The notes beneath the pieces are model-generated. The model did not search any database and was not told the origin of the DNA. It saw nothing but the letters and a program-made list of their open reading frames with translations. Below are positions 16,215 through 58,172 of a stretch of 64,000 bases of DNA, piece after piece. How positions within the stretch are numbered: the stretch's first letter is position 1; the number at the start of each line of letters is the position of its first letter. This stretch comes from Deltaproteobacteria bacterium GWC2_55_46 (lineage in GTDB: Bacteria; Desulfobacterota; GWC2-55-46), in contig LVEI03000001.1 in NCBI GenBank assembly GCA_001595385.3, positions 434,001 through 498,000 of the forward strand. The letters run 5' to 3'. The translations under genes were made by a program, and so were the position numbers.

Positions 16215-17618
16215 TCAGTCCTCATGGATGGCATACTTGCTGAGCTTGTATCTCATCGACCTGAAAGAGAGACCAAGAAGCTCCGCGGCCCTTTTCTTTA
16301 CTCCACCCGCTTTCTTGAGGGCATCGGTTATTATCGCCTTTTCAAAATCCTCGACGGTCTTTTCAAGGTCCATCCCTCCATCAGGGACGCCAAGGCCCTG
16401 CGCGCCGACAGGCACGACGGAGAGCGCCGGAAGAGACGGCTGAGGCGCCCTCAGATGGTCCGGCAGACTTTCAAGGGCCGCCTCTGTACCCTCTTCAAGG
16501 GTAACAGAGCGCTCGATGATATTTTCAAGCTCCCTGACGTTGCCTGAATAATCATAGTCCATAAGAGAGCGCATGGCCTCTTCAGATATCTTTTTTACGT
16601 CCTTGGCAAGTGCCTTGTTGTACTTCTCTAAAAAATGCCTGCAAAGGTGTGGGATATCCTCCTTGCGCTCCCTGAGAGGCGGCATGGCGATCCTTATGAC
16701 GTTTAGCCTGTAGAAGAGGTCTTCACGGAACCTCCCCGCCTTTACCTCTGATTCGACATCCCTGTTTGACGCGGCGACAAGCCTTATATCGACGCTTATG
16801 TCGTTGCCCCCGCCGACACGCCTGAAGCTCCTCTCCTGTATGAAACGCAGGAGCTTCACCTGCAGATGCAGCGGCAGCTCGGTTATCTCATCGAGGAAGA
16901 GGGTCCCGCCGTCGGCCTGCTCCGCAAGCCCTTCCCTGCTGGCCACGGCGCCGGTAAAAGCCCCCCTCACATGGCCGAAGAGCTCGCTTTCAAGGAGGTT
17001 TTCAGGTATCGCCCCGCAATTGACCGCAACGAAAGGCCTATCCTTCCTGTCGCTCTCGTTGTGTATGGCCCTGGCGATAAGCTCTTTCCCGGTGCCGCTC
17101 TCCCCGCTTATGAAGACGTTGGTCCTTGTCTTGGCAACGCTCATTATGAGAGAGTAGACCTCGGCCATCCTCGGGCTTGTGCCTATGATATTGGAGAAGC
17201 CGAGCCTGGATTTAAGCTCGTTTTTGAGGAGCCTGTTCTCGCGCTCCAGCCTCTTAAGCTCCAGCGCCTTCCTTACGGTGAACTTTACCTCGTCTATATT
17301 GAAGGGCTTGGTGAAATAATCGTAAGCGCCAGCCTTCATCGCGTCGATGGCCGTCTCAACGGAGGCGTAGGCGGTTATCATCACGACGAGGGCTTCGGGG
17401 TCCATTTCCTTCATGGCCTTAAGGAAGTCCACCCCGCCCATCACGGGCATCCTTACGTCAGAGATGACGAGGTCGGCCCCGCGGCTCTTTATCTCTTCGA
17501 GGGCGACAGGGGCCGATTCCACCCCCAACGCGTCATACCCTTCCTTCCTGAGCATTATCTCAAGGAAGTCCCTCATGTCCTTTTCGTCGTCAACTATTAT
17601 TATACGCTGTTTGCTCAT
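16215..17618 (-). CDS. pilR: Sigma-54-dependent response regulator PilR
   Basis: Domain order is receiver, AAA+ sigma-54 activator, and Fis-type helix-turn-helix. The receiver has the acidic pair Asp10/Asp11 and phospho-acceptor Asp54 (VISDVRMP). The AAA+ domain shows Walker A GESGTGKE, GAFTGA (the sigma-54 contact loop) and GGTLFLDEI. The C terminus (KRAAELLGLSFRSMRYKLSKY) is the DNA-binding helix-turn-helix. Length of 467 is typical. It follows pilS by nine bases and sits just before pilA, which has a sigma-54 promoter. Function: activates pilA when phosphorylated by PilS. Confidence 0.93.
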   Translation of the reverse strand: MSKQRIIIVDDEKDMRDFLEIMLRKEGYDALGVESAPVALEEIKSRGADLVISDVRMPVMGGVDFLKAMKEMDPEALVVMITAYASVETAIDAMKAGAYDYFTKPFNIDEVKFTVRKALELKRLERENRLLKNELKSRLGFSNIIGTSPRMAEVYSLIMSVAKTRTNVFISGESGTGKELIARAIHNESDRKDRPFVAVNCGAIPENLLESELFGHVRGAFTGAVASREGLAEQADGGTLFLDEITELPLHLQVKLLRFIQERSFRRVGGGNDISVDIRLVAASNRDVESEVKAGRFREDLFYRLNVIRIAMPPLRERKEDIPHLCRHFLEKYNKALAKDVKKISEEAMRSLMDYDYSGNVRELENIIERSVTLEEGTEAALESLPDHLRAPQPSLPALSVVPVGAQGLGVPDGGMDLEKTVEDFEKAIITDALKKAGGVKKRAAELLGLSFRSMRYKLSKYAIHED

Positions 17619-17627
17619 AGTAACCCG

Positions 17628-19295
17628 CTAAGTAAGAACTGCCCGCTCCTCGATAGGGAGCAATATCCTGAACGTAGCCCCATTGCCAGAAACGCTTAAA
17701 ACCTCTATAAAGCCGTTATGGCTCTGTATTATCCTGTGGACTATAGCGAGGCCAAGGCCGGTGCCCCTGTCCTTCGTGGAAAAGAACGGGTCGAATATCT
17801 TCTTTATGTCCGCTGGCCTGATACCGGCCCCAGTGTCAGCCACCGTCACCTCGACGAAGCCGGCCCCGTCCTTGTCATGCAAGATGCCGCCTTTCGTGGT
17901 ATAGCCTGTAGAGACAGTAAGCCGCCCGCCCGCCTCCATCGCGTGGGCCGCGTTCACGAAGAGGTTCCAGAAGACCTGCCCCAGCTGCCTGGGGTCTCCG
18001 TGGAGCCGGAAGCTGTCGCTTACATGCGTCTCTATGCTTATCCGCGACGCCTCAGGGCAGTTCCTGAAGACCTTTACGGTCTCGTTTATTATGGCCGAAA
18101 GGTCGACTGTCTCGCGAGGCTCTCTGGCGGGCTTGGCGAAAAGGAGGTAGTCGGTTATAAGCAGGTTCAGCCGGTCGGTCTCACGGAGTATTATGTCCAT
18201 GAGCCTCCTGTCGTCGCCGGTGGGGTCGCTATCCTGCCTGAGCATCTGTATCGAGCCGCTTATCGAGGCGAGCGGGTTCCTTATCTCGTGGGCTATGCCT
18301 ACTGAAAGCTCTCCGAGGGCCTTCATCCTCTCGTCCCTCTGGAGCGCCTCCTCCATCTCACGGAGCCGCGTGAGGTCCTGGAATATTATTATGCTGTCAA
18401 CGTCACCGCCCTGCCCCTGCGATATGGTAAAGCCCAGGTATATCTCCTCCCCTGTCTTCTTCCTGAACTTCTCCTCGACCCTGACCCCGCTCATGGCGTA
18501 CTCAAACCCCTTGCCGAGCATGCCCGGGAATATCTCCTCTACGCCCCTGTAATAGACCTCCCGGAGGGTATAGCCGGTGACGTTCTCGGCCTCGCGGTTG
18601 AAGGACGTTATGCGCATCCTGTCGTCAAGCGTCATTATGCCGCTCGTGATGTTCTCCACTATCTGCCTGTTCAGCGCCTCGAGCCGTTCGTAGTCGATCC
18701 CCTTCTCCTCAAGCTCCCTTTCGACCTTTGCCGTCCTCTCGGCGAGGTACCCCGCGAGGTAAGCGACCGTAAAGAAGGCGAGTATGTTCGTGGAGACGGT
18801 CATGAAGACGTCTTCCCACGCCGGGGCGAAAGGGGCGCTTATGAGCTTGTGTTTTATCGGCAGCATCCTGTAGAAGTCCATGTCGATGAGGACCCCGTAG
18901 GCGATGCTGGAGACGGAGGCCGCGTAGAAGCCTCCGCGCTTGTTAAGGAGTATCGCGGCCCCGATAACGGTAAGTGGATAGAGGGCTGGCAGATAGCTTT
19001 CAGTGCCGCCGGTTATATAGACGATTATCGTGGCGAGGGCTATATCGACGGTAAGCTGCGCGTAAGTAAAGAGTTTGAGGTTCCTGACCCTGTTGAGTAG
19101 CAGGGCATAGAGAATGGTGAGGAAGCCTACCGCGGCCACGATGACGTAGAGCGGGAAGAAGTTCACCCTCGAAAAGGAGAACTCCCTTACCTGGAACCAT
19201 GCGGTAACGCCCAGGAAGGCAAGGGCAAGCACCACCCTCAATATCATCATGGCCAGGAGCCTGGCCCTGAGGACCTTCTGGGGGTATGCCTGCAT
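17628..19295 (-). CDS. pilS: Sensor histidine kinase PilS
   Basis: About six transmembrane helices occupy the first 190 residues (for example LLAMMILRVVLALAFLGVTA). A coiled segment and a PAS domain follow (VENITSGIMTLDDRMRITSF). Then come HisKA with the phospho-acceptor in VGIAHEIRNPLASI and HATPase with NLFVNAAHAM, DTGAGI and DRGTGLGLAIV. This matches PilS, the membrane kinase that senses pilin in the membrane and phosphorylates PilR. Its neighbours pilC upstream and pilR downstream support the call. Confidence 0.92.
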   Translation of the reverse strand: MQAYPQKVLRARLLAMMILRVVLALAFLGVTAWFQVREFSFSRVNFFPLYVIVAAVGFLTILYALLLNRVRNLKLFTYAQLTVDIALATIIVYITGGTESYLPALYPLTVIGAAILLNKRGGFYAASVSSIAYGVLIDMDFYRMLPIKHKLISAPFAPAWEDVFMTVSTNILAFFTVAYLAGYLAERTAKVERELEEKGIDYERLEALNRQIVENITSGIMTLDDRMRITSFNREAENVTGYTLREVYYRGVEEIFPGMLGKGFEYAMSGVRVEEKFRKKTGEEIYLGFTISQGQGGDVDSIIIFQDLTRLREMEEALQRDERMKALGELSVGIAHEIRNPLASISGSIQMLRQDSDPTGDDRRLMDIILRETDRLNLLITDYLLFAKPAREPRETVDLSAIINETVKVFRNCPEASRISIETHVSDSFRLHGDPRQLGQVFWNLFVNAAHAMEAGGRLTVSTGYTTKGGILHDKDGAGFVEVTVADTGAGIRPADIKKIFDPFFSTKDRGTGLGLAIVHRIIQSHNGFIEVLSVSGNGATFRILLPIEERAVLT

Positions 19296-19303
19296 CCTGG
19301 CCC

Positions 19304-20524
19304 TTAGCTTCCGGCTGCGCCGGCTATCTGGAATATCGGGAGATAGAGCGCTATGACAAGGCCTCCGACGACGATGCCGAGGAAGGCCATCAGCAATGGC
19401 TCGATAAGGGAGGTCAGCGCCTCGACGGCCTGGTCGACCTCCTCTTCGTAAAAGTCCGCTATCTTCGTGAGCATGGTATCTAGCGCGCCGGTTGACTCTC
19501 CCACAGCTATCATCTGGGTCACCATGCCGGGGAAGACCTTTGTCTCCATAAGCGGGTCGGCAAGGGTCTTGCCCTGGCTGAGCGAGGTGCGCGCCTTGAG
19601 GACCGCCTCTTCTATGATGACGTTCCCGGCGGTCTTGGAGACTATCTCAAGCCCTTCGAGTATAGGCACTCCGCTTGAGAGCATCGTGCCGAGCGTCCTC
19701 GTGAACCTGGCGACGGCGGTCTTTCTTATGAGGTCGCCAAGCACCGGGAGCTTAAGGAAGGTCTTGTCCATGACCCTGCGCCCCTTGGGGGTCTTATAGG
19801 CCCTGTTGAGACCAACTCCTATGCCTACGCCGGTGGCGATGATGGCGTACCAGTAGGACTTAAGTACGTTGCTCATCTTGACGACCATCTGGGTCGGCGC
19901 CGGCAGGGCCTGGCCGAAGCCGGAGAACATATCCTCGAATATGGGGACGACCCAGAGAAGCAGGCCGCTTACTACAAGCGAGGCTATGACGATGACCGCG
20001 GTCGGGTAGGTCATCGCGCTCTTTACCTTGCCCTTGAGCTTCTCGGATTTCTCAAGGAAGGACGATAGCCTGTTAAGTATGGTATCGAGGATGCCGCCGA
20101 TCTCTCCGGCGGCTATGAGGTTGACGTAAAGGTCGTCGAATACCTTCGGGTGCTTCTTGAGCGCGTCGGCGAATGTCGAGCCGCCTTCTACAGAGGATTT
20201 CACGTCGAGGAGGACCTTCTTGAACTCGGCGTTCTCCTGCTGGCTCGCGAGGATATCAAGGCACTGCACGAGCGGGAGGCCGGCGTCTATCATCGTGGCG
20301 AACTGGCGGCTGAAGATGACTATGTCCTTTGTCTTGACGCCCTTGCCAAGGCCGGGTATCTTTATATCGGAGAGCGCGAACCCCGCCTTCTTCTGCGAGA
20401 TGGAGGCGGGCATTATCTGCTGGCGCCTCAAGGCAGCGGTTGCCTGGGCGAGGCTCGCCGCCTCTATTTCCCCCTTTTTCCCATCCCCGCTGAGTGTCCT
20501 GCCGCTGTAGACGAAAATAGGCAT
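19304..20524 (-). CDS. pilC: Type IV pilus inner-membrane platform protein PilC
   Basis: The 406-residue protein has two copies of the type II secretion F domain (FSRQFATMIDAGLPLVQCL and FTRTLGTMLSSGVPILEGL). Its three membrane helices are the usual ones, including PTAVIVIASLVVSGLLLWVV and a last one in LLMAFLGIVVGGLVIALYL. PilC is the platform that couples the PilB and PilT motors to pilin assembly. It begins three bases after pilT. Length is normal and no lesion is seen. Confidence 0.95.
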   Translation of the reverse strand: MPIFVYSGRTLSGDGKKGEIEAASLAQATAALRRQQIMPASISQKKAGFALSDIKIPGLGKGVKTKDIVIFSRQFATMIDAGLPLVQCLDILASQQENAEFKKVLLDVKSSVEGGSTFADALKKHPKVFDDLYVNLIAAGEIGGILDTILNRLSSFLEKSEKLKGKVKSAMTYPTAVIVIASLVVSGLLLWVVPIFEDMFSGFGQALPAPTQMVVKMSNVLKSYWYAIIATGVGIGVGLNRAYKTPKGRRVMDKTFLKLPVLGDLIRKTAVARFTRTLGTMLSSGVPILEGLEIVSKTAGNVIIEEAVLKARTSLSQGKTLADPLMETKVFPGMVTQMIAVGESTGALDTMLTKIADFYEEEVDQAVEALTSLIEPLLMAFLGIVVGGLVIALYLPIFQIAGAAGS

Positions 20525-20527
20525 GGC

Positions 20528-21649
20528 TTACATCGTCCTCCCTGTTGGCGCGCCGGTCCTCAACACGCCAGCGTTAACGAGCATCTGGCGGAGCTCATCA
20601 GGCTCCTGGCTCCTCCCGAGGGCCTCCTCGAGGGTAATAAGCCTCCTGGAGTAAAGGCTCATGAGGCTCTGGTTCATGGTCTGCATCCCGAACTTTGCCT
20701 GGCCAACCTGCATCTGCGAGTAAATCTGGTGTATCTTGTCCTCCCTGATGAGGTTCCTTATGGCGGCGTTCGGCACCATCACCTCGAGCGATATGACCCT
20801 GCCCTTGCCGTCAGCCCTGGGTATCAATAGCTGCGAGAGCACCCCTTCGAGGACGAAGGAGAGCTGCGCCCTTACCTGCGGCTGCTGGTCAGCGGGAAAT
20901 ACGTCCACGATCCTGTTTATGGTCTGCACGCATGAGTTGGTGTGAAGGGTCGCGAAACAAAGGTGGCCCGTCTCGGCGATGGTGAGCGCGGTCTCGATGG
21001 TCTCCATGTCCCTTAGCTCTCCGAGGAGCACCACGTCCGGGTCCTGCCTGAGGATATACTTCAACGCCTTTTTGAAGGCGTGCGTGTCGTACCCGACCTC
21101 CCTCTGGTTCACGAGCGCCATCTTGGAGTTATGGAGGTACTCTATAGGGTCCTCGACGGTTATTATGTGCTCTGCCCTTTCGGTGTTTATCTTGTCTATG
21201 ATTGACGCGAGCGTCGTGGACTTGCCGCTCCCGGTGGGGCCAGTGACGAGTACGAGGCCGCGCGGCTTCTTCGAAAGGTCTTCCATTATGGGCGGAAGGC
21301 CAAGCTCCTGGAAGGACATGATCTTAAAGGGGATGGTCCTGAAGGCGCCGGCCACGGTGCCCCTCTGGACGAAGAGGTTGCCCCTGAAACGGGAGAGGCC
21401 CTTGATGCCGAATGAGAAATCCAGCTCGTTTTCCTCTTCGAACTTATGCTTCTGGGCGTCTGTCAGAATGGAGTAGCAGAGCTGCTTTGATTCAATGCCT
21501 GTTAACGCCGGGGTGCTCATCGGGGCCAGTTTGCCGTGAAGCCTTATCCTCGGAGGCGAGCCAGCCGTTATATGCAAATCGCTTCCGCCCTGGTCGATCA
21601 TCACCCGCAGAAGCTCCTGAATATTGTATTTATTGCCTTCAACCGCCAT
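20528..21649 (-). CDS. pilT: Type IV pilus retraction ATPase PilT
   Basis: Secretion ATPase of the PilT group: Walker A GPTGSGKST, the AIRNLIREDKIHQIYSQMQ segment and the C-terminal region with ALGRSQEPDELRQML are diagnostic. The Asp box (ILRQDPDVVLLGELRD) and His box (AETGHLCFATLHTN) are complete. The frame is open to 21748, but ATG at 21649 has GGGAGAGG upstream and begins at the conserved region, giving 373 residues. It powers pilus retraction and twitching. It lies 112 bases downstream of pilB. Confidence 0.94.
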   Translation of the reverse strand: MAVEGNKYNIQELLRVMIDQGGSDLHITAGSPPRIRLHGKLAPMSTPALTGIESKQLCYSILTDAQKHKFEEENELDFSFGIKGLSRFRGNLFVQRGTVAGAFRTIPFKIMSFQELGLPPIMEDLSKKPRGLVLVTGPTGSGKSTTLASIIDKINTERAEHIITVEDPIEYLHNSKMALVNQREVGYDTHAFKKALKYILRQDPDVVLLGELRDMETIETALTIAETGHLCFATLHTNSCVQTINRIVDVFPADQQPQVRAQLSFVLEGVLSQLLIPRADGKGRVISLEVMVPNAAIRNLIREDKIHQIYSQMQVGQAKFGMQTMNQSLMSLYSRRLITLEEALGRSQEPDELRQMLVNAGVLRTGAPTGRTM

Positions 21650-21761
21650 GAACCTCTCCCCCTTAAGTTGCACGTTCTTACGCAGTCTACCTGAAAATCT
21701 TAGATAATAAAGCGCTCCGGCGTAAGGACAAAAGTTACAAGGCCGCAATAAAGTCCCGGCC

Positions 21762-23459
21762 TCAGTCGGCCATGGTCACCCTCAAGACCTCTTCGAGAGT
21801 CGTGACACCCTCGCCAGCCTTGGTCACGCCGCTCATCCTCAAGCTCTTCATCCCGTCTTTTATGGCCGCCCTCTTTATCTCGACCGAGGAGGCCCCGTTA
21901 AGGACCAGGTCTTTTATCGTATCGGTAAACGGCATTACCTCGTAGAGGGCGATCCTGCCCTTGTAGCCGCTCCCTCCGCACGTGGCGCAGCCGTTCCCCT
22001 TGCATATCTCCATTTTTTTGGCCTCCTCTGGCGTGACACCCAGGTCAAGGAGCACCTTTTCAGCTATCGGTGCCTTTACCCTGCAGTCCTTGCAGATCTT
22101 CCTGGCAAGCCTCTGCGCCAATATGAGGTTGCATGACGACGATACGAGGAAAGGCTCTATGCCCATGTTAAGCAGCCTGTTTACAGTCGAGGGCGCGTCG
22201 TTGGTATGGAGGGTGGAAAGCACCAGGTGGCCGGTAAGGGCCGCCTTTATCGCTATCTCGGCAGTTTCGTAGTCCCTTACCTCTCCGACCATTATGATGT
22301 CCGGGTCCTGACGCAGGAAACTCCTCAATGACGCCGCGAAGTTAAGCCCGATGTCCTCATGCATCTGGACCTGGTTGATGCCCATGAGGTTGAACTCGAC
22401 CGGGTCTTCAGCCGTGGATATGTTCTCGCTTATCTTGTTAAGCTCGGACAACGCCGAGTAGAGCGTAGTAGTCTTTCCGCTTCCGGTGGGGCCCGTTACC
22501 AGCACGATGCCCCAAGGCCTGTGAATGGCACCCATGAAGTCTTTTAATGCCTTCTCCTCGAATCCGAGCTTGGTCATGTCGAGCTGGAGGTTCGCTTTAT
22601 CGAGGAGCCTGCAGCAGACCTTCTCGCCAAAAAGGGTGGGAAGGACCGAGACCCTGTAGTCCATCTCCTTGTTCTTCGAGAGCTTGAGCTTTATCCTGCC
22701 GTCCTGCGGGAGCCTCCTCTCGGCGATGTCCAGGTTGCTCATTATCTTTATCCTGGAGACTATCGCGTTCTTGAGCTTCATGGGAGGCTTCATCACCTCC
22801 ATCAGGACGCCGTCTATCCTGTACCGTACGCGGAAGTGCTTTTCGTAAGGCTCGATGTGTATGTCGCTCGCGCCCTTTTTTATGGCGTCGGTCAGGATGA
22901 GGTTGACGAGCTTTACAACAGGCGCGTCCTCTACCGCCTTCTTGAGGTCCGAGAGGTCTACCTCTTCCTCTTCCTTGATGACCTCCATCTCGCCCTCGTC
23001 GAACTCCGTGAGCACCCCTTCGAGGCCCATCTCAGGGGTCTCGTAATACTTCTCGATGGCGCTCTTTATGGCGGTGTCAGAGGCCACAAGCGGCTCGACG
23101 TTATAGCCAGTGAGGAACTTTATGTCGTCTATGGCGAATATATTCGAGGGGTCGGCCATCGCGACGACCAGTGTAGAGCCGGTCCTGGTGACCGGTATTA
23201 CCTGGTATTTCTGGGCAACGTCCTCAGGGATGAGCTTTACTATCTCGTGGTCTACTTCCTGGACGGAAAGGTCAATGGTGGGGATACCGTACTGCCTGCT
23301 TAAAAAAGAGGTGAGGTCCTTTTCGGTAATATAGCCGAGCTTCGCGAGGTTAAAGCCAAGCCTTCCCCCGCTCTTTTTCTGCTCATCTATCGCCTTCTTC
23401 AGCTGCTCCGGCGTGATGAGTCTTTCCCTTAGAAGAAGCTCGCCTATCCTGTCTGTCAT
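21762..23459 (-). CDS. pilB: Type IV pilus assembly ATPase PilB
   Basis: The N-terminal MshEN/GSPII-E domain (IGELLLRERLITPEQL) precedes the secretion ATPase core with Walker A GPTGSGKTT, the Asp box and the His box. A tetracysteine zinc site (CKDC and CATC) lies near the C terminus, as in PilB. A TTG at 23483 is in frame, but ATG at 23459, preceded by AGGGA, is the likely start (565 residues). It drives pilin polymerisation. It is the first gene of pilB-pilT-pilC-pilS-pilR. Confidence 0.95.
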   Translation of the reverse strand: MTDRIGELLLRERLITPEQLKKAIDEQKKSGGRLGFNLAKLGYITEKDLTSFLSRQYGIPTIDLSVQEVDHEIVKLIPEDVAQKYQVIPVTRTGSTLVVAMADPSNIFAIDDIKFLTGYNVEPLVASDTAIKSAIEKYYETPEMGLEGVLTEFDEGEMEVIKEEEEVDLSDLKKAVEDAPVVKLVNLILTDAIKKGASDIHIEPYEKHFRVRYRIDGVLMEVMKPPMKLKNAIVSRIKIMSNLDIAERRLPQDGRIKLKLSKNKEMDYRVSVLPTLFGEKVCCRLLDKANLQLDMTKLGFEEKALKDFMGAIHRPWGIVLVTGPTGSGKTTTLYSALSELNKISENISTAEDPVEFNLMGINQVQMHEDIGLNFAASLRSFLRQDPDIIMVGEVRDYETAEIAIKAALTGHLVLSTLHTNDAPSTVNRLLNMGIEPFLVSSSCNLILAQRLARKICKDCRVKAPIAEKVLLDLGVTPEEAKKMEICKGNGCATCGGSGYKGRIALYEVMPFTDTIKDLVLNGASSVEIKRAAIKDGMKSLRMSGVTKAGEGVTTLEEVLRVTMAD

Positions 23460-23478
23460 CGTCCCTGATAGTTTGAGT

Positions 23479-23491
23479 GACAAAAATTGTC
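23479..23491. promoter_or_regulatory. Palindrome upstream of pilB
   Basis: GACAA-AAA-TTGTC is a perfect inverted repeat 20 bases upstream of the pilB start. Its half sites resemble the TGTCA sites upstream of pilA. It may be an operator of the pil operon. Confidence 0.35.
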
Positions 23492-29377: not shown

Positions 29378-30439
29378 TCACCTTGCCGGGTGGAGCCTTA
29401 CTGTCACGACAGTGCCCTTGTCCTTGGCGCTATCCACCTCTATCTCACCACCGTGGTCCTGGATTATCCGGTAAGTTATGGTAAGGCCCATGCCAGCGCC
29501 CTCGAACTTGGTCGACTGAAACGGGTTGAATATCTTCCTTACCTCTTCCTTTGTCATCCCGACTCCGTTGTCGGTTATCCTGATAATGAGCGTCTCATCG
29601 GCCACCGGCGCCGTCTCAACCGTTATGACCCCGTTTGTCTCTATCGCCTCGACCGAGTTCTGGAGGATATTGAAGAGCGCCATCTTCATATTCCCATAGT
29701 CGTAGTTCACCGGCGGCGCGTCTGGCATAAGGTTCTGCCGTACCTCGATAGTCTTCCCCTGCCCTTCGATAAATTCCCTTATTTCGTTTGTGGCTTCAGC
29801 AACTACCTTGTTTAAATCCCCTTTTACGAGGGTAGATACGAGGATCCTTTTGTACTCGTCGATCCTTTCGATCATCCGTTCAAGCCTCTCAACGGACTTT
29901 ATTATCCATTGGGCGTACTCCCTGTGCTGCGGTTCTGTCTCGTGCTCAAAAAGGCGCCTCGCTATGCCTCCGATCGCCGTAAGCGGGTTCCTTATCTCGT
30001 GTGCTATGCCGTCGACCATCTCGCCAAGGGCGGCGACCTTCTCGGTCTCCCTGAGTTTTGTCTGCAGCGCCCGCATCCTCAAAAGGGATTTGACCCTCGC
30101 TGAGACCTCCAGGAGGCTGTAAGGCTTGTTTATATAGTCCTCGGCCCCGACCTCAAAACCCAGCACCTTGTCCTCTACCTCTGCCCTTCCTGTGAGCATT
30201 ATGACAGGTATGTACCTCGTCTCTTCCCTTGACTTAAGGTGGCGCAAGGCCTCGTACCCGTCCATCCGGGGCATCATCACGTCCATTATTATGAGGTCCG
30301 GATGAAAGCTGGTCACCTGCTGCAAGGCCTCGATACCGTTTCTGGCAGTGGCCAGCTCATAGCCATCCCTGTCGAGCTTGGCAGACAGGAGCGCCAGGTT
30401 CCGCTCGTCATCGTCAACGGCAAGGATACGCGGTTTCAT
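29378..30439 (-). CDS. Response regulator-histidine kinase fusion (receiver first)
   Basis: The receiver domain comes first (VDDDERN, phospho-acceptor Asp in LIIMDVMMP, Thr in MLTGRA, Lys in YINKPY). It is followed by HisKA with the His in VDGIAHEIRNPLTAI and a HATPase with DNGVGM and GAGMGLTI. There are no transmembrane helices, so it is cytoplasmic. This inverted receiver-kinase order suggests a kinase switched by phosphorylation from another kinase. It stands alone, converging on nadB, and a cognate partner is not evident. Confidence 0.88.
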   Translation of the reverse strand: MKPRILAVDDDERNLALLSAKLDRDGYELATARNGIEALQQVTSFHPDLIIMDVMMPRMDGYEALRHLKSREETRYIPVIMLTGRAEVEDKVLGFEVGAEDYINKPYSLLEVSARVKSLLRMRALQTKLRETEKVAALGEMVDGIAHEIRNPLTAIGGIARRLFEHETEPQHREYAQWIIKSVERLERMIERIDEYKRILVSTLVKGDLNKVVAEATNEIREFIEGQGKTIEVRQNLMPDAPPVNYDYGNMKMALFNILQNSVEAIETNGVITVETAPVADETLIIRITDNGVGMTKEEVRKIFNPFQSTKFEGAGMGLTITYRIIQDHGGEIEVDSAKDKGTVVTVRLHPAR

Positions 30440-30977
30440 AATATATCCCTGCCTTCCTTCAGATTATTCAAATTCGCCTCCTTGACGCCCATACCGCCTT
30501 CCCCGGCCAACCTTGCCATATTACAGCCCTTTTCCAATTATACAACGCATCCCGCGGCCCCGCCTTCATAATGAGCCATCCTTGAATGAGTACGTTTTAG
30601 AGATTTAGCCTATTAAAATTTACTCAATAATTACACCTATATTGATGCCTAGTCAAGAATCTTTCTTGGATGGTGATTAAAAGTGATCAGGAGGAAAAAT
30701 CTCAGGGGTCGCTTTTGATGGACTGTACGAGTAAGGCTATATGGGCTTTGGCTTTATATCTTTATGCCTCATCCAAGGCGCTGGGGCCTGTTTGACCAGG
30801 CCCCAGCCAATAACAGTTTAGCCGGGCTAAAAAAACACAGAGTTTGTTCAGGCTGCTTAAAAAACCATATGCGAGGCCCCAATTAAATCGGGAAGCGAGA
30901 ATGAGGCGTACTCATTATGTACGCCGCAATGGCTGGCTTCTGGAGCCAACGACGCGGATGGACTTGATTCATGCCTG
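30440..30977. other. Non-coding region with several hairpins
   Basis: About 540 bases with no supported gene. It holds a long hairpin (30780-30790 pairing with 30797-30807) that lacks a T run on either side. It also has a smaller one, GGCGTAC/GTACGCC (30905-30911 with 30919-30925), inside a GC-mixed block that ends next to the outer-membrane protein gene at 30978. The block 30860-30970 looks structured and could be a repeat unit or a 3' regulatory element. No known RNA family was recognised. Confidence 0.4.
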
Positions 30978-31727
30978 TTAAAAATCAGCCCTGAGCATCA
31001 CGAAGGGCCCCTTTACGGTCAGGTCCGCGAGGTCGTCGTCGCTTTCAAGGTGGAGCTTAAAGATCCTGTAGCCGCCGGATATCACAACAAACGGCGCTGG
31101 CTTCAGGTTCACCATCGCCTCGCCATCGATGATATAAGCCTCGCTTCCGATGCCCATGCCCGTGACCTCTCCCCCGACGCTCAGGAGGAATGGAAGCCCG
31201 ACCTGGGCCGCTATGCCGACCGTGGGTATCGGCGCCTTGAAGCTCTCGGTCTCATCGAGGCCGGCTGACGGGGCCGTGAGGCTCGCCTCTCCGTCAAAGT
31301 ACTTTATCTCGAATATCACACCCAGGCGGTTGTTGAGCGTATCGATGAAATCGTACTCGTATCCAAGCCGGTGATAGCCCATCTTAAGCTCGGATTGAAC
31401 ATCGGTCGAGGCCGAGTAGGTCTCGCCGTTAAAGACTATGTTCTGGGTAGTGGTCTTGCTGCCGTTCCATTTTAGCGGCATATACCCGTACCTTATCTTG
31501 TGGCTCCCCAGCTCAAGGGTTATCCTTGCATCCAGAAAATCATCGTCCTCGACCCCGAGGTCGTCGGTTAAGTCTATCTCCGTTCCGCTTGTCCCGCCTT
31601 CAGTTACCTTGACCGTGCCGTCGAGGTCTGTAAACCAGTACCTTCCCTCGATATCGACGACAGCGAAAGCCATGGAACCGGTAAAGAGCACCAACATGAA
31701 CGCGAACAAAAAAGAGAGCTTTTTCAC
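30978..31727 (-). CDS. Outer-membrane beta-barrel protein, unknown function
   Basis: GTG start at 31727 has GGAGG seven bases upstream. A signal peptide (MKKLSFLFAFMLVLFTGSMAF) precedes a mature part built of alternating hydrophobic/polar strands ending in aromatic residues (IRYGYMPLKW, LGYEYDF, FEIKYFDG). The C terminus ends in LRADF, the terminal Phe that directs BAM-dependent insertion. It is the last gene of the LPP20/CsgG-like cluster, 50 bases after the LPP20-like gene. A pore or anchoring role in that complex is an inference. Confidence 0.7.
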   Translation of the reverse strand: MKKLSFLFAFMLVLFTGSMAFAVVDIEGRYWFTDLDGTVKVTEGGTSGTEIDLTDDLGVEDDDFLDARITLELGSHKIRYGYMPLKWNGSKTTTQNIVFNGETYSASTDVQSELKMGYHRLGYEYDFIDTLNNRLGVIFEIKYFDGEASLTAPSAGLDETESFKAPIPTVGIAAQVGLPFLLSVGGEVTGMGIGSEAYIIDGEAMVNLKPAPFVVISGGYRIFKLHLESDDDLADLTVKGPFVMLRADF

Positions 31728-31776
31728 AGACGACCTCCAGCTTTTATTATAGACCCGATTGCCTTATTCCAACGTC

Positions 31777-32601
31777 TCAGTTCAACACAAAGACGACCCT
31801 CGCGGCCTCGAAAAATCCGCCGGTCTGGTTCGCCGAGAAGACCATCACCGCCTCTTCCGGCGCAAGCTCGACGTCGGTACCCCTTACAACGCCGCTCGCC
31901 TTAACGACAAGAGGGTTCTTTGAGCCCCTCGCAGCGAGGATGGACATTGCCTCATCGATGCCGCTGGTATAACCCGCGGCGCCCCTTGAGGCGATAACCT
32001 CCCGCGCCACCTTTGACGGGTCATATATAGCCTCTCCGCCTTTTGTGATTATCCTGTTTATGAGCGCAGGCTTCATTTCCAGCTCCCGCGCGTCGATTAT
32101 CAGCCCATCATAGCCCATGGCAGAGGCCGCCCCAGCAGGCTGGAAGGGCGGCATGGCGACCTCTCCTGAAAGTAGCGGGATAAGAGATCCGGCTATGCCC
32201 TGCAAGGGAACGGTTACGTAAACTGCCGCCATGGCGGCAGCGGGGTCGTAGACCTCTTTTACGACCCGCGCCCCCGTTACTACGCCCTCTACAGAGGTAC
32301 GCACTACGTCCGATGAGGCGGCCGCATCCTTGACCGTCGTCTCCCCGGTGACCGCGACCCCGTTAAGTATCTCCGCCACTTCCCTCAACGCCGTTATCTT
32401 TGCCGCCCTCAGGGCGAGCATCCTCTTTTGCGCGGGTGAGATTGGCTTATCAGGGGCCGCACCCTCGCCTTTTACCATAACCCCACCTGCCATAAAGGCC
32501 TGTTTTGGGTCGAGCGTCTCCTGCGGCATATCGGTCAAGCCCGCCCAGGACGCGACGGCAAAGGCCAGCATGAAGACGGGCAATAGAAATATCTTACACA
32601 T
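31777..32601 (-). CDS. LPP20/FlgP-like exported protein
   Basis: ATG at 32601 is preceded by GGAGG; the frame is open to 32631. An N-terminal hydrophobic signal segment (IFLLPVFMLAFAVASWA) predicts export. The KRMLALRAAKITALREVAE stretch and following repeat, with VTGETTVKD and VEGVVTGARVV, match the LPP20 domain seen in FlgP and many envelope lipoproteins. No lipobox cysteine follows the signal, so it is probably soluble or bound to a partner. The second half (GLIIDARELEMKPALI) is also found in LPP20-type proteins. It is co-transcribed with the CsgG-like gene. Confidence 0.7.
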   Translation of the reverse strand: MCKIFLLPVFMLAFAVASWAGLTDMPQETLDPKQAFMAGGVMVKGEGAAPDKPISPAQKRMLALRAAKITALREVAEILNGVAVTGETTVKDAAASSDVVRTSVEGVVTGARVVKEVYDPAAAMAAVYVTVPLQGIAGSLIPLLSGEVAMPPFQPAGAASAMGYDGLIIDARELEMKPALINRIITKGGEAIYDPSKVAREVIASRGAAGYTSGIDEAMSILAARGSKNPLVVKASGVVRGTDVELAPEEAVMVFSANQTGGFFEAARVVFVLN

Positions 32602-32636
32602 CAAGTCCTCCGTCAGGCTACTTCCAAACATTGTCC

Positions 32637-33827
32637 TTAATAGATATTCAACTGATGGCGAAGCGCCCTTATCGCCATTATCGCCTCGGCCCCGTCCACA
32701 GGCTCATCCGGCCTGAATTCGCCTGAAAGCCCGGTCTCCATCAGGTTCCTTGTGGTCACGCTCATAATGGCGTTGTACCAGGGCGAAGAGGTCTCAACGT
32801 CAGGGAATGGCGAGTTCCTGTGCCCTAAAAACGCCGAGGCAATCTTTGCGTTGCCCGTAAGCTTTATCACTATGTCCTCGAGGGCCAATGCCAGCTCTTT
32901 TCTCTTTACCGGCTCTTCGGGCCTGAAAAGATACGCGCGAGTGCTCTCGTCATAGACAGGCTCAAGGCCGCGGACGCCCCACTTGACCATCGATGAGACC
33001 TCTTCCCTGAACGGGCTTGAAAGGACGTCAGCCGGGACAAACGGCGGCTCCTTCGCTTTTTCAGGGATGCGTCCCGCGAAAAGCTTATCGACCTTTATCT
33101 CGTCTACGAAAAGGGCGGCCATATCGGCCCTGGTAACCGTATCCCTCAGGGCTATCCCCTTTCCGATGTCACCGAGCGTTATGCCGGAAAGGGCCCTTAC
33201 GGCCTTATCTGTCCTCTTCCACGCCACGTCAGATGGTCCGTGCCACCTGCCCTCCTGCCTTGAGTTAAGGACTTGAGCGAAGCGCTCCCTTGCCTGCTGG
33301 AACTCCCTGGCCTCCATGTAGGCGATCCCCATGAAGTAATCGGCAGACTCCCTTGCCTGATAGTATGGGAGCTTAACGGGATCGACCTTGAGCTTCAGGG
33401 CTCCCCTGTAGCTCTTCTCAACGTCCTTTAGCCAGCCATTGCCCTTAAGTATGCTGTCTACCCTCATGGAAGCGAGCCTCCACGCGAACTCGTCCTCAGG
33501 GGTATCGGCATTTTTTTTCGCTGCCTTTAGTTCTCCGTATACTTTTTTTACCTCTTGGCTACGGTATTTATCATCCTTTACGTCCCTGGCCTTGAACGCC
33601 ATGGCAATGGCGGCTCCTGCGTGCGCGGGCGAGTACTTCTCATCGCACCAGGAGGAACGGCTGAACTTTTCGGCGGCGGCATCGGTTTTGCCTGCCTCAA
33701 GCAGCTCCATGCCGGTGAGATAATGGTGGGCCGGGTTGTCCTCTGGCGCCGTGCACCTTACTGGCGTCTTCGAGCAGGAGAAGATAAATACAACGAGGAG
33801 GAGCGCAAGGGCTGAAAGCTTCCTCAT
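32637..33827 (-). CDS. Lipoprotein with repeat region and C-terminal SLH-like domains
   Basis: A signal peptide with a cysteine at a lipobox-like site (VVFIFSCSK) predicts a lipoprotein. A tetratricopeptide-like helical region covers about residues 25-190 (YLTGMELLEAGKTDAAAEKF, YFMGIAYMEAREFQQARERF). Two S-layer-homology-like segments follow, near residues 215-300 and 300-396 (VTRADMAALF, FPDVETSSPWYNAIM, GEFRPDEPVDGAEA). SLH domains bind cell-wall polymers or peptidoglycan-linked glycans. It sits between the CsgG-like and LPP20-like genes with small gaps, suggesting a peptidoglycan-contacting part of the same complex. Confidence 0.72.
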   Translation of the reverse strand: MRKLSALALLLVVFIFSCSKTPVRCTAPEDNPAHHYLTGMELLEAGKTDAAAEKFSRSSWCDEKYSPAHAGAAIAMAFKARDVKDDKYRSQEVKKVYGELKAAKKNADTPEDEFAWRLASMRVDSILKGNGWLKDVEKSYRGALKLKVDPVKLPYYQARESADYFMGIAYMEAREFQQARERFAQVLNSRQEGRWHGPSDVAWKRTDKAVRALSGITLGDIGKGIALRDTVTRADMAALFVDEIKVDKLFAGRIPEKAKEPPFVPADVLSSPFREEVSSMVKWGVRGLEPVYDESTRAYLFRPEEPVKRKELALALEDIVIKLTGNAKIASAFLGHRNSPFPDVETSSPWYNAIMSVTTRNLMETGLSGEFRPDEPVDGAEAIMAIRALRHQLNIY

Positions 33828-33838
33828 CTCAGGGCCTC

Positions 33839-34798
33839 CTATTTTTTCACCTTTATCACGTCCCCAGCCTTAAAGCCCGTACCAGAGCTGACCTTGGCCT
33901 CGGAGATCATCTCGCCCTGGTGCTCTGCAAGAGTTACCTCACCGATGAGCTTCTCCCTCTTGCCGATCACCCTGCCGGTATCCGGGTCAACGAGGTCGGC
34001 CCCCGGCCTGTAGACAGAGAAGACGGTGCCCGGGTCGAGCCTGCTCCTGGTCCCGGCCCTCACGGTAACGCTCGAACCGTCTACGTCAAGGACCTTCCCC
34101 TGGAAAGGCAGCTGGTTCAGCTTGGCGACCATCTTGGTCATGGCCTTTGTGAGCGCGTCACGGAGCGCTCCGTCCCTTAGCCCCGGGTCAGCCGTTGCCT
34201 TTGAGCCAAGGCCGAGGATACCTCCGGTCGTCTTCGCGTACTCACCCATGCCGGATTCGGCTACAAGGCTCTTGCCGGTAGCGACATCTACGAGAGAGTA
34301 GTCTACCTGCACCCTCGCTATGTGCTTTTTCTTCTGGGTGATGATCCTCTCTACCGACTCTTCTACCTCGGCATAGGAGGTCACTGAGCCTGATATCCTG
34401 AAGTCGAGCGACTCATACCCGGCTCCCGCGTCCTTCAATCCCTTTTTCACTGCCCCGGTCTGCTGAAGCTCAATCAGCCTCTCCTGCTGCTTGAACTCCT
34501 CTTTCGTGACGACTATCGGCTCAAGCCCCGAGTTCTTGACTATCGTCCTCAGTATGTCGGTGGCGGCCTCGCCGACGCCTATGGTCCTGCTCGGCGTCTT
34601 GTTCTCGAACTCGAGTATGGCGATATTGTACTCAGGCCCCCTGTACAGGGCGCCTTCAGCCTCAAGCTCCCTGGTCTGCTTGGTCAGTGTCACGTCGTCC
34701 TTTACAGCCCCTGTGGTCTTTATGCCGCAGCCTGCGGCAAGGCCACCGATGGTTAACACAAACAACAACATGATGCTCTTTATCGTCTTTCCCGTCAT
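33839..34798 (-). CDS. CsgG-like outer-membrane lipoprotein with FlgT-C-like end
   Basis: The signal peptide ends in a lipobox, GLAAGC. The middle part matches the CsgG/curli assembly family (YNIAILEFENKTPSRTIG, ATDILRTIVKNSG, ISGSVTSYAEVE). CsgG forms the nonameric outer-membrane channel for curli subunits. The last ~85 residues (GKVLDVDGSSVTVRAG, VFSVYRPG, GFKAGDVIKV) resemble the C-terminal domain of the flagellar H-ring protein FlgT rather than a plain CsgG. ATG at 34798 has AAGGAGG upstream. No curli subunit genes are nearby, so its cargo, if any, is unknown. Confidence 0.75.
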   Translation of the reverse strand: MTGKTIKSIMLLFVLTIGGLAAGCGIKTTGAVKDDVTLTKQTRELEAEGALYRGPEYNIAILEFENKTPSRTIGVGEAATDILRTIVKNSGLEPIVVTKEEFKQQERLIELQQTGAVKKGLKDAGAGYESLDFRISGSVTSYAEVEESVERIITQKKKHIARVQVDYSLVDVATGKSLVAESGMGEYAKTTGGILGLGSKATADPGLRDGALRDALTKAMTKMVAKLNQLPFQGKVLDVDGSSVTVRAGTRSRLDPGTVFSVYRPGADLVDPDTGRVIGKREKLIGEVTLAEHQGEMISEAKVSSGTGFKAGDVIKVKK

Positions 34799-34800
34799 CT

Positions 34801-35535
34801 CTACCTCCTTTGGTCCCTATCATCACGCTGCATAGGCCTTCCCGGCCCTGATGGCAGCCTCGCCATTACCCAGTTCATCATGCTCTCTGTCTCAAGCCAG
34901 AGGTGGACGCCAAGGGCCTTGGTCAGGAGCTTCTCGCCAAGAGATATCGCGGCGGCGTCCTCAGCTTTTTTTGTCGCCCCCGCCCTGATTACCCGCCAGT
35001 CCCTCAGCCCCTCTATTTCATCGAGCCCCTGTATGGCGCTGAAGGCCTCAAGGCCGTCATCCATCGCCTCTTTAAGCACCGTTACGCCGACCCCGGCCTT
35101 TGTCCCTGCGATGACACTTTTGACGCCCAGGCCCCTGGACCAGATGACAGCCCCGGTCCTGGTGTCTACCAGCTTGAATCCGGCCCTGACCTTCTTGACG
35201 TTATAAAAGCCCGTCGTGATGTCGTCGAAGTTCAATACGTAGCCGTATATCACGCCGTCTACCCCAAGTACCTCGCCAAGCTGTGCCGGGTTAGTCATCT
35301 CAAGCTGAGAGCCAAGGGTTATGCCCATCTGGTTCAAGAGCAGCTCGTCTACCTCTTTTAAAGGCATCACCCTGTAATGCCTGTGCTCTATCCTCTTCTG
35401 GAATTGCTCCCTTATCTCCTTCGGCCCGCCGACGTCGTTCGTGGCGTTGTAGAACGGAAGCACCGCTACCGTGTATACCGGGTTCGACAGGTCCGGCGGA
35501 TACTTCGGCAAATGAGCGGCGCATGACGCCAGCAA
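34801..35535 (-). CDS. GNA1162-family lipoprotein (non-canonical start suspected)
   Basis: The protein resembles GNA1162/DUF799 outer-membrane lipoproteins (YTVAVLPFYNATNDVGGP, FQKRIEHRHYRVMPLKEVDELL, VDGVIYGYVLNFDD). The first standard start codon is TTG at 35535, but that leaves only four residues before a lipobox cysteine (LLASC). The open frame upstream encodes the missing signal peptide, PKGLLLIALIFLLASC. Its only start-like codons with a ribosome site (GAGG at 35581-35584) are ATC at 35571 or ATT at 35577. The true start is therefore probably upstream of 35535. It lies between the FlgT-N-like and CsgG-like genes. Confidence 0.75.
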   Translation of the reverse strand: MLASCAAHLPKYPPDLSNPVYTVAVLPFYNATNDVGGPKEIREQFQKRIEHRHYRVMPLKEVDELLLNQMGITLGSQLEMTNPAQLGEVLGVDGVIYGYVLNFDDITTGFYNVKKVRAGFKLVDTRTGAVIWSRGLGVKSVIAGTKAGVGVTVLKEAMDDGLEAFSAIQGLDEIEGLRDWRVIRAGATKKAEDAAAISLGEKLLTKALGVHLWLETESMMNWVMARLPSGPGRPMQRDDRDQRR

Positions 35536-35582
35536 AAAGATGAGCGCGATTAATAAAAGACCCTTCGGGATGTGAATATACC

Positions 35583-36767
35583 TCAGTTGCCGGCCTCCAC
35601 CTCGATGGTATTCTGGGTAGCGCCGGTCACCCTGAAGCCCTCAAGCCTCGATATCTCGTCGGCTATCGCCTGGGCGGCGACCCTGGATTCTACCTCAAAT
35701 GCGGCAACCCCTTCCACGAAGCTCCTCTGGTAAAGGGCCGCTATGCCCCTTACCCTCGACTTAAGGAGCCTTTTGAACTCGACTACATCATCGTAATCCG
35801 CGCCCTTAAGTGTTATCCTGACCGTTGCTGGCCCGGACCATTTTGAGGTTATCTGGGAGATAAGGCCTTTAGCCAGCTCCGCGGATGCCTTCGAAAGGGC
35901 TTCGGCGGCACCTGTTCGCTCAGAGATATGCCTTGATGTGCCGTACCCCTTCGCCGACGCGATGACGCTTCCGTCATCGACCCTCACAGCCTCTGCCGTT
36001 ATGTCGGCGAGATAAGTGCCAACGGTGCCGCCAGCGCTTGCCCCCTGCCTTACAGAGGCCTTGCCGAATACCACTACTTCGGCTTGAAGGCCCTTGCCTG
36101 TCTCCCTTGCAAACAGGCTTGAAACATCGGCTGCGCCGTAGCCTTCGGCTATATCTTTTTTTTCAGCGCTCGCGGTTGTATCAACGACGCTAAACCCTCT
36201 GGCGATGAATATCTCCTTGAGGGCGGCCTCCGAATCGGGCATATCTATCGCTTCACGCGACTGCCACCAGGATGAGTATGAACTGCTTTCCATGCTCTTT
36301 TCGGCTATCATGAAGAGCACCCTGGGGCGTTCGGCCTTTCTCTGGAGAAGCCCCATGGCGTCGAGATCGCCTTCGATGTCCCCGGTTGCGACATTGGCCC
36401 TGACTGTAACCTGGTAGGTATCACCGGAACGGGCTTCGCCTGTAACCGCGTAATTGACGACATAGCCCTGGGTCCTGCTATAGACGCTGTCCCTCAAGAC
36501 CTCATAACTTTCGACAACCGTCTCGGAAGAGATGATCGTCCCTACAGCCTGCTCTACGGCGTTCCTCAGGGCTTCGGCTATGGCGCTGTCACGGGCCATG
36601 GCTGCGTTGCCCCCCTGGATAGCGGAGGACCCGGTCGCGTTTATTGTTATCGACTTCTCTGCTGCTTGAATGTTTGCGAGGAAGAAAAAAGAGTATAGAA
36701 AAGAGAGGATAACTATTGAAAGGAGGGTTCTGGACGCCAGTCCAGGGCCCCAGGTCTTTCCAGTCAT
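35583..36767 (-). CDS. FlgT-N-like exported protein
   Basis: Signal peptide (LSIVILSFLYSFFFLANIQAA) and a domain typical of the FlgT N terminus and LPP20 proteins: INATGSSAIQGGNAAMARDSAI, followed by ALRNAVEQAVGTII and VNYAVTGEARSGDTYQVTVRA. The second half (VLFMIAEKSME to VVVFGKASVR) is a TolB-N/CsgG-like fold, and the third (VRITLKGADYDD) a small alpha/beta domain. It heads the six-gene envelope operon, with a GGAGG-type ribosome site. In Vibrio, FlgT builds the flagellar H ring; no flagellar genes occur here. Confidence 0.7.
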   Translation of the reverse strand: MTGKTWGPGLASRTLLSIVILSFLYSFFFLANIQAAEKSITINATGSSAIQGGNAAMARDSAIAEALRNAVEQAVGTIISSETVVESYEVLRDSVYSRTQGYVVNYAVTGEARSGDTYQVTVRANVATGDIEGDLDAMGLLQRKAERPRVLFMIAEKSMESSSYSSWWQSREAIDMPDSEAALKEIFIARGFSVVDTTASAEKKDIAEGYGAADVSSLFARETGKGLQAEVVVFGKASVRQGASAGGTVGTYLADITAEAVRVDDGSVIASAKGYGTSRHISERTGAAEALSKASAELAKGLISQITSKWSGPATVRITLKGADYDDVVEFKRLLKSRVRGIAALYQRSFVEGVAAFEVESRVAAQAIADEISRLEGFRVTGATQNTIEVEAGN

Positions 36768-49813: not shown

Positions 49814-50737
49814 CTAAAACTTGTAGTTGACCCCTAACATTATGGCTTTCGAATCCCAGTTCACGTCGTTAAGCGGCGTATCGGAGGCGGTGCCGTCCGA
49901 GAAATAGGTCCTGTCCGTGCCATCGGAAGCTGACCAGTCCTGGAGGTCGAACCTGCCGGCGAGCGACCAGTTCCTCTCCATAGCATACTCGGCCCCGAGC
50001 GAAATGACAACCCCCGTGCCTGTTGCCCAGTGCTCAAAGCTTACCGGGTGGGCGAAATCAGTCCTCAGGTTCCAGTCGGCCTCAGCCCTGTAGTAGGCGA
50101 GGTGGTACTCGAAAGAGCCCAAAAGCGACAGCTTCCTGTAGGAGTAAGATAGGTCTACCCCGGCCCACGGCCCTGCCCAGCGGGCCTCGTAGGTGCTGTC
50201 GAGGCCGCTGAACGGCCCGACGTCCCCTGTGGGCGAGATGGTCTGAAAGCCGTCCGTCAGGGTGAGGTTCTGCTTATGATAAGAGAGGCCCGCTACCGGT
50301 ATTATATCCAGGGCCCCGGCCGGTGTGGCAAACCTGAAGAGGTACCCCATACCGGCGGAGAAGTCCCAGAGCGAGCCATCGTCCGTTTTATTGTTGGACC
50401 GCGAGTACTCAAGTGTCCTGTTGTCTCCCCTGTAGTCAGAGTCCTGGTTCTCTCCGCTTGTGATGAAGGCATACCCGGCGTAACTCCTTATATATACGCG
50501 GTCGAGGTATATCCTCGCCTTTGCCATGGCCTGGTAGCTTTCAAGGTCCGTCCACGTAAGCTCTGAGAGGACGTTGACGACGTTCCCATACGGAGACACG
50601 CCGGATATGTTCCAGTCAAGGTTATCGACCCTCTTCCCGGCGGAGAATTCGATTTTAGATATTTCATCGGCGGCGCTGGCACCGTTGAGGAAAAAGAGCG
50701 TTACCGCCGCAACCGTCAAAACAAGGCACTTCTTCAT
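49814..50737 (-). CDS. Outer-membrane beta-barrel, omptin/Pom-like
   Basis: Signal peptide (MKKCLVLTVAAVTLFFLNGASA) followed by a barrel of alternating polar/aromatic strands (VDNLDWNISG, VLSELTWTDL, RSYAGYAFITSG, MGYLFRF, WAGVDLSYSY). The C terminus ends in LGVNYKF, the Phe-terminated strand used for barrel insertion. The LDWNI and ELTWTD pattern resembles omptin-like and Pom-type porins. Whether the omptin catalytic Asp/His residues are conserved could not be confirmed. It is 12-20 bases apart from the regulator gene. Confidence 0.6.
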   Translation of the reverse strand: MKKCLVLTVAAVTLFFLNGASAADEISKIEFSAGKRVDNLDWNISGVSPYGNVVNVLSELTWTDLESYQAMAKARIYLDRVYIRSYAGYAFITSGENQDSDYRGDNRTLEYSRSNNKTDDGSLWDFSAGMGYLFRFATPAGALDIIPVAGLSYHKQNLTLTDGFQTISPTGDVGPFSGLDSTYEARWAGPWAGVDLSYSYRKLSLLGSFEYHLAYYRAEADWNLRTDFAHPVSFEHWATGTGVVISLGAEYAMERNWSLAGRFDLQDWSASDGTDRTYFSDGTASDTPLNDVNWDSKAIMLGVNYKF

Positions 50738-57350: not shown

Positions 57351-58172
57351 ATGAAGAGACTGTTCATGCTGTCTGCAATGGCGATTGCGCTTACTGCTGC
57401 AAGCGAGGCCGGTGCAATATCAATAACCCAGACCAACAGCGCCTCAGCTCTCGGAGCCGCGCTTGGCGGTGTTACCGTGACATCGGTTTCAGGCGACGCC
57501 AGCCAGTTCGGCACATTCACAAACTCTTCCGGGCTCTGGGGCATTGGAAGCGGCGTAGTCCTCTCGACCGGAAATGTCAACAATTACAATGACGGGCCGA
57601 ATACGATTGGAAGTAAGAGTACGAATTACGGTACCGCAGGACAGGCAGACCTTACTGGACTGGCGGGATATACAACTTATGACGCCGCGCTGCTGCTCTT
57701 CGATTTCGTGGCAGGCAACACCCAGTTCAGCTTTGATTTTGTTTTCGGCTCAGACGAATACCCCGAATATGTAGGTTCCCAGTTCAATGATGTGTTCGGG
57801 GCGTTTTTTGGCGGAGCTGGGGGCACCAATGTCACTTACGATCAGTTTGGGAACCCTATTACGATAAATTCGGCCTGGATGAGCAGTCCCACAGGCACAG
57901 AGCTTGACGGCGCAACCATCCTGCTTTCTACAACAGTCGGAGGCCTCACCGTCGGCAATACCTATTCTCTCATGTTCGGTATTGCGGACACCTATGACCA
58001 CATCTACGACAGCACTGTCTACATCAGCAACTTCAGGTTCACGAGCGGGCAGGATGTGGGCACGAACCCGACCCAGAACAATCCGGTTCCTGAGCCCTCC
58101 ACGATTATCCTCCTCGGCACAGGGCTTGCCGGACTCGGCTACTATGCCAGGAAGAGACAGAGGAAGTCATAA
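57351..58172 (+). CDS. PEP-CTERM protein with choice-of-anchor-L-like domain
   Basis: Signal peptide (MKRLFMLSAMAIALTAAS), then a ~200-residue extracellular domain (GVTVTSVSGDASQFGTFTNS, FDFVFGSDEYPEYVGSQFND, GADVFGAFFGG-type segment FNDVFGAFFGGAGG) as in choice-of-anchor L proteins. The C terminus carries VPEPSTIILLGTGLAG, a membrane helix and the basic tail RKRQRKS. That is the PEP-CTERM signal recognised and cut by exosortase during export to the cell surface or exopolysaccharide. A strong ribosome site (AAGGAGAG) precedes the ATG. No exosortase gene is in the window. Confidence 0.9.
   Translation: MKRLFMLSAMAIALTAASEAGAISITQTNSASALGAALGGVTVTSVSGDASQFGTFTNSSGLWGIGSGVVLSTGNVNNYNDGPNTIGSKSTNYGTAGQADLTGLAGYTTYDAALLLFDFVAGNTQFSFDFVFGSDEYPEYVGSQFNDVFGAFFGGAGGTNVTYDQFGNPITINSAWMSSPTGTELDGATILLSTTVGGLTVGNTYSLMFGIADTYDHIYDSTVYISNFRFTSGQDVGTNPTQNNPVPEPSTIILLGTGLAGLGYYARKRQRKS

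Follow-up and report, generated by a model that had tools for sequence, protein, structure and literature searches.

Introduction

The flagellar H ring of Vibrio, composed of FlgO, FlgP and FlgT (PDB 3w1e, 8z5n), is an outer-membrane and periplasmic assembly, and the FapH/Lpp20/FlgP protein of Helicobacter and the FlgP basal disk of Campylobacter represent the SHS2 fold family at the outer membrane, as flagellar accessories in Campylobacterota. Within the FlgP/FlgT SHS2 family, the proteins that form rings are reported to be those with a hairpin insertion behind the SHS2 helix (PMC12222027), and loss of FapH weakens the outer-membrane barrier of Helicobacter (PMC11756786). A ring is also found with MCE lipid transporters: the MCE protein PqiB meets a toroid of PqiC, and XCC0632, a homologue of PqiC, is encoded in an mlaFE-MCE operon (PMC10897342). 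In MlaEFD systems of the Veillonella type, a long MlaD itself crosses the envelope, and whether accessory proteins assist such long bridges is a question that has been raised (PMC10665443). Here we describe a six-gene operon that shares features with these systems. It lies on the minus strand of a 64,000-nucleotide stretch (the window; contig LVEI03000001.1, positions 434,001 to 498,000) of the genome of Deltaproteobacteria bacterium GWC2_55_46, which comprises 2.79 Mb in three contigs. In a named genome collection, its close relatives are uncultured Deltaproteobacteria known from metagenome-assembled genomes (MAGs), such as GWA2_54_12, GWA2_55_10 and GWB2_55_19.

Results

The six open reading frames are exactly where the initial annotation had placed them, with gaps of 2-50 bp (Table 1). 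All six genes are under strong purifying selection; in comparisons with congeners, nonsynonymous divergence (dN) is 0.15-0.41 against a near-saturated synonymous divergence (dS) of 1.2-2.4. Given also that the CsgG-like protein is encoded in 48 of 63 genomes of the class and that mean column identities across the operon protein alignments are 36-63%, the operon is not a chance arrangement. Three of its products, the GNA1162-like, CsgG-like and TPR-SLH proteins, look like lipoproteins, each with a lipobox whose Cys is invariant or nearly so; the FlgT-like, LPP20 and barrel proteins have ordinary signal peptides and no lipobox. Family scans of the operon proteins used Pfam and NCBIfam with curated cut-offs.

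Counterparts of the FlgT N, M and C domains are all encoded in the operon, spread over two proteins. The FlgT-like protein matches FlgT_N over the cut-off (Pfam E 7e-9) and is divided into an SHS2/FlgT_N domain (residues ~39-137), a TolB-N/PelC-like middle domain (~145-310) and a C-terminal domain (314-392) of beta-alpha-beta-beta-alpha-beta order. Its profile matches FlgP of Campylobacter (E 7e-5). In its AlphaFold model (predicted local distance difference test score, pLDDT, 82) the middle domain is close to PelC, CsgG and TolB-N, and the top PDB match is FlgT (E 4.5e-9), so that the protein as modelled resembles FlgT N and M in fold. The CsgG-like lipoprotein, in which Cys24 of the lipobox is invariant among relatives, falls just below the CsgG cut-off in Pfam (18.8 bits versus 20.8, E 0.001; 19.1 bits in the genome search). 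Modelled from 32 relatives (pLDDT 74), it too has Vibrio FlgT as its top PDB match (Foldseek E 7e-15; Z 16.1 over 241 residues, model residues 39-319), followed by CsgG (Z ~14) and by PelC and the DUF330/PqiC-family protein XCC0632 (Z ~13). The model thus describes a FlgT-M/CsgG/PelC fold joined to a small FlgT-C/TsaP-like barrel domain (~232-319), and the C-terminus also matches TsaP by sequence (E 1.8e-5). Matches of this C-terminal domain to F1-ATPase were set aside as reflecting a common small barrel.

The FlgP counterpart is the LPP20 protein. Its Pfam match to LPP20 is just below the cut-off (E 0.001), and its profile matches FlgP of Campylobacter (9hmf, 5e-15) and of Vibrio (8z5n, 2e-9). 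These FlgP profile matches, along with fold matches of the CsgG-like model to FlgT and then CsgG, settle the otherwise weak LPP20 and CsgG family calls. The LPP20 protein is larger than FlgP. Its C-terminal half (window 31777-32120) is well conserved, with the motif KPALINR, and has no Pfam family match. Both SHS2 proteins, the FlgT-like and the LPP20 protein, align gaplessly with Campylobacter jejuni FlgP through the stretch that follows the SHS2 helix, the site to which the ring-forming hairpin is assigned (PMC12222027). The initial annotation had proposed a likeness to H-ring proteins (FlgT, FlgP) and CsgG, which is borne out by profiles as well as by predicted folds, FlgT being the top match of both models.

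The operon accordingly holds counterparts of FlgT-N, FlgT-M, FlgT-C and FlgP, distributed otherwise than in Vibrio. It differs further from the Vibrio H ring in the added SLH lipoprotein and barrel and in the place of FlgO, for which no family match was found among the operon proteins at E up to 1 and where a GNA1162-like lipoprotein is encoded instead. The latter belongs to PF05643 (45.5 bits versus a cut-off of 25.9; Pfam E 8.5e-12), and its profile matches neisserial GNA1162 (4hrv, E 1e-12), from which it differs in its greater length and in its setting among FlgT/FlgP-type genes. This gene probably starts at a CTG (35586-35584) that overlaps the stop codon of the FlgT-like gene (CTGA), since translation from there, as read from the sequence, yields a lipoprotein signal that ends in LLAS-C. 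With the TTG start listed for the gene (35535), the product has 244 aa and no such signal. In one other family of relatives (f11), one protein combines GNA1162 with a DUF4412-like domain (L047:8345-9775), and a second protein of 820 aa with GNA1162, beta-helix and TPR parts is encoded beside the operon (L047:11624-14086).

The TPR-SLH lipoprotein, with an SLH match over the cut-off (E 6.6e-12), a weak TPR match and an invariant Cys18, is the sole SLH match in the window genome and is likely to be a peptidoglycan or wall anchor. The barrel protein matches TIGR04219 under its cut-off (E 1.8e-21) and is conserved in relatives.

The operon is flagellum-independent. FlgI is an essential P-ring protein. 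It is absent from several near-complete operon-bearing genomes (G008, G009, G011, G012, G034, G048 and G051), with 100% completeness in G009, G012, G048 and G051, and is present in others. Homologous operons are therefore not always found beside flagellar genes. In the window genome, FlgI is encoded at 86 kb and the operon at ~465-471 kb, about 380 kb apart, and, as first noted, neither flagellar nor curli genes were found among the window proteins scanned.

The initial annotation missed a connection, evident in relatives, between the operon and a second MCE/Mla transporter. In most of these relatives, the ring genes are followed on the same strand by genes for an MlaE permease (MlaE2), an ABC ATPase (MlaF2), an MCE protein (MlaD2), a TPR lipoprotein and a response regulator fused to a histidine kinase (RRHK). 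A search for MlaE over 59 relatives gave two score groups, a canonical one (257-297 bits) present in nearly all of them and a divergent one (MlaE2, 198-233 bits). Among operon-bearing genomes, 29 of 45 encode MlaE2, as against 0 of 14 that lack the operon (Fisher p 2e-5, descriptive only, as the test treats related genomes as independent). Wherever both are on one contig (23 of 23 cases), MlaE2 is 4.9-8.2 kb from the GNA1162-like gene; in the remaining six genomes the two are on separate contigs of fragmented assemblies. In more distant families (G031, G048, G051 and G054), the stretches read no longer contain the neighbouring sulfate, NadB and pilus genes, whereas the ring and MCE genes are still together. 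In several relatives a prepilin-like (N_methyl) gene, absent from the window, lies just upstream of the FlgT-like gene (L033:6797-7276).

MlaD2 (~340 aa in locus L033) consists of an MCE domain and ~160 residues that weak family matches predict to be helical and coiled-coil-like, with no barrel. The unit is like the Veillonella type in having MlaEFD without MlaA or MlaC nearby and an MlaD extended by a helical region, but MlaD2 is without the C-terminal barrel, and a separate barrel and the ring operon are encoded next door. It is like the PqiABC/XCC0632 type in that a TolB-N/PelC-like outer-membrane lipoprotein is linked to an MCE transporter, but several ring-type proteins are present rather than one. 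The likeness to XCC0632 is by fold only (Z 13), as no operon protein matched the DUF330 (ABC_trans_aux) sequence family at E up to 1.

In the window, the MlaE permease, ABC ATPase and MCE protein are not in the gene cluster, though they are in most relatives, and no remnants of MlaD2 or the TPR gene were found in the 30440-30978 gap. What remains is the RRHK gene, the last of the MCE unit in relatives. In a tree built from the CsgG-like protein, MlaE2-free genomes are nested among MlaE2-bearing ones (~3 changes). MlaE2 was thus lost about three times, and the window lineage lost MlaE2-F2-D2 and the TPR lipoprotein and kept the ring operon and kinase. Within the window genus, L055 and L114 keep the TPR gene and the kinase, while L057, L058 and the window keep the kinase only. 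The canonical MlaD of the window genome (L137:4818-6356; G000 C1 ~1.139 Mb) has 512 aa, with an MCE domain, an extended helical region and, by its sequence, what reads as a barrel at the C-terminal end, and resembles the long Veillonella type (compare PMC10665443).

Outside the class, Nitrospirota (including Nitrospira defluvii and Manganitrophus), Nitrospinota, gammaproteobacterial MAGs and one MAG of the Geobacteraceae carry a core of FlgT-like, GNA1162-like and CsgG-like genes, the latter two of which are retained in Gallionella-type MAGs; some of these MAG contigs may be wrongly assigned.

A type IV pilus cluster not reported initially (PilR, PilS, PilC, PilT and a PilB-like protein; window 16215-23483) lies 7.5 kb downstream of the operon and is syntenic with it within the family, not in more distant families. 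Elsewhere in the window are a barrel (49814-50737) with a match to Pom, a family of Protochlamydia outer membrane proteins (1e-69), and a PEP-CTERM motif protein (57351-58172). Promoter and terminator scans gave nothing useful above shuffles, except one strong hairpin-T site upstream of the operon region (38195-38159).

Table 1. Genes of the ring operon and the retained kinase gene, in window positions
Feature	Position	Strand	Basis
FlgT-like secreted protein, 394 aa	35583..36767	-	Pfam FlgT_N, profile, AlphaFold model
GNA1162-like lipoprotein, ~261 aa from proposed CTG start	34801..35586	-	Pfam, profile, lipobox
CsgG/FlgT-like lipoprotein, 319 aa	33839..34798	-	Lipobox Cys24, fold matches, TsaP match
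TPR-SLH lipoprotein, 396 aa	32637..33827	-	SLH match, weak TPR, invariant Cys18
FlgP-type LPP20 secreted protein, 284 aa	31777..32631	-	LPP20 match, FlgP profile matches
Outer-membrane beta-barrel, 249 aa	30978..31727	-	TIGR04219 below its cut-off; kept in relatives
Response regulator fused to histidine kinase (RRHK)	29378..30439	-	Pfam, synteny

Discussion

The best explanation of these observations, which we put forward tentatively and at somewhat less than an even chance, is that the operon encodes a non-flagellar, H-ring-like outer-membrane/periplasmic scaffold that originally served a second MCE lipid transporter as its outer-membrane terminus. Under this scenario, the CsgG/FlgT- and GNA1162-type lipoproteins would anchor in the outer membrane and assemble into at least one ring together with the proteins of FlgT-N and FlgP type, with the TPR-SLH lipoprotein tying the ring to the cell wall and the barrel protein providing the membrane-spanning part. 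In the ancestral state, MlaE2 and MlaF2 would power an ABC transporter served by the ring, and MlaD2 would extend toward the outer membrane to dock on it, by analogy with PqiB meeting the PqiC toroid. Consistent with such a scaffold, FlgT, FlgP, CsgG, PelC and DUF330, to which the operon proteins show resemblance, are all families with ring-forming members. As MlaEFD2 was lost in the window lineage while the ring genes and kinase were kept, the ring would there have to act by itself, in wall anchoring and envelope integrity, or together with the long-MlaD system that remains.

Several observations weigh against this scenario. Fold matches do not prove function, and the presumed ring-forming hairpin (residues 79-102) has low pLDDT in the FlgT-like monomer model, so that we only infer ring assembly. 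The linkage to MCE genes is partly inherited block synteny: a larger block of sulfate genes, ring operon, MCE unit, NadB and pilus genes is syntenic in two families, and ring-MCE adjacency alone could be inherited with it, but in the more distant families the two stay together without these flanks in the stretches read. Sixteen of the 45 operon-bearing genomes are without MlaE2. MlaEFD2 is likewise absent from the window genome, which encodes only the canonical MlaE and MlaD, so transport cannot be the whole function there; as the ring genes are still under selection, they do something without that transporter. Finally, no MCE genes are near the FlgT-GNA1162-CsgG core in Nitrospirota, Nitrospinota and others. 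As the core often stands alone, linkage to MCE genes characterises this class rather than the core wherever it occurs.

The core standing alone in Nitrospira defluvii and other MAGs, and the retention of the operon under purifying selection by a genus without the MCE genes, would also fit a stand-alone lipoprotein complex for envelope maintenance or peptidoglycan regulation, of the LpoB/Lpp20 kind and with no pore or transport, to which the MCE linkage would be secondary. LpoB is among the weak matches, and the SLH protein suggests contact with the wall. We regard this possibility as rather unlikely, as it leaves unexplained both the conserved barrel and why MlaE2 is never found without the operon and always adjoins it. 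A role as accessory to the nearby type IV pilus, in the form of a TsaP-like ring that surrounds the pilus secretin at the outer membrane, is suggested by the TsaP match of the CsgG-like C-terminal domain, by the prepilin-like gene that precedes the operon in some relatives, and by the pilus genes themselves, which stay near the operon in eight genomes (G002, G007, G014, G015, G016, G028, G035 and G040). However, the operon has neither a LysM domain nor a secretin, and in the conserved block it is set apart from the pilus genes by unrelated genes and by NadB, which is encoded on the other strand. The synteny test also ranks this role lower, since no pilus genes are in the stretches read around the operon of G008, G009, G031 and G048, nor in the shorter ones of G051 and G054, where the ring and MlaEFD2 genes are together; we consider it quite improbable.

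Least probable, and in our view very unlikely, is a CsgG-like secretion pore that exports protein or polysaccharide as in curli, HfaB or Pel systems. The core fold of the CsgG-like protein and the dedicated barrel in the operon would suit such a pore. The CsgG-like protein, however, has an extra FlgT-C/TsaP-like domain as compared to CsgG and PelC, its CsgG match is below the cut-off, and CsgG was not among its matches in a profile search of PDB sequences. Moreover, residues 140-160, the position of the first membrane hairpin of CsgG, are charge-rich (9 of 21) and conserved, and no csgA/E/F or Pel/Wza-type genes are beside the operon among the window proteins scanned. The initial annotation had suggested an undescribed outer-membrane ring or export system. 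The first half of that suggestion holds, in that the operon is of H-ring type, non-flagellar and apparently undescribed, but export is not supported; in view of the MCE/Mla link in relatives, a part in lipid traffic or in maintaining the outer membrane is more likely than protein export. We found no paper on it in the open-access literature, where absence is weak evidence.

If the scaffold does serve an MCE transporter, a bolder version, which we consider unlikely, is that of a new trans-envelope lipid conduit, in which a FlgT/FlgP/CsgG/GNA1162-type assembly with its own barrel and wall anchor would be the port for a barrel-less MCE needle, and flagellar H rings could have been recruited from this non-flagellar relative. 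With or without that version, the operon provides named candidates, with clear genetic linkage, for how MCE transporters reach or open onto the outer membrane beyond the Escherichia coli paradigm, and a flagellum-free setting for FlgT/FlgP-type proteins bears on the origin of flagellar H rings and basal disks. As a whole, the operon points to a so far undescribed ring machine in the envelope of these uncultured deltaproteobacteria, and its core, which reaches bacteria such as Nitrospira defluvii, may matter well beyond them.

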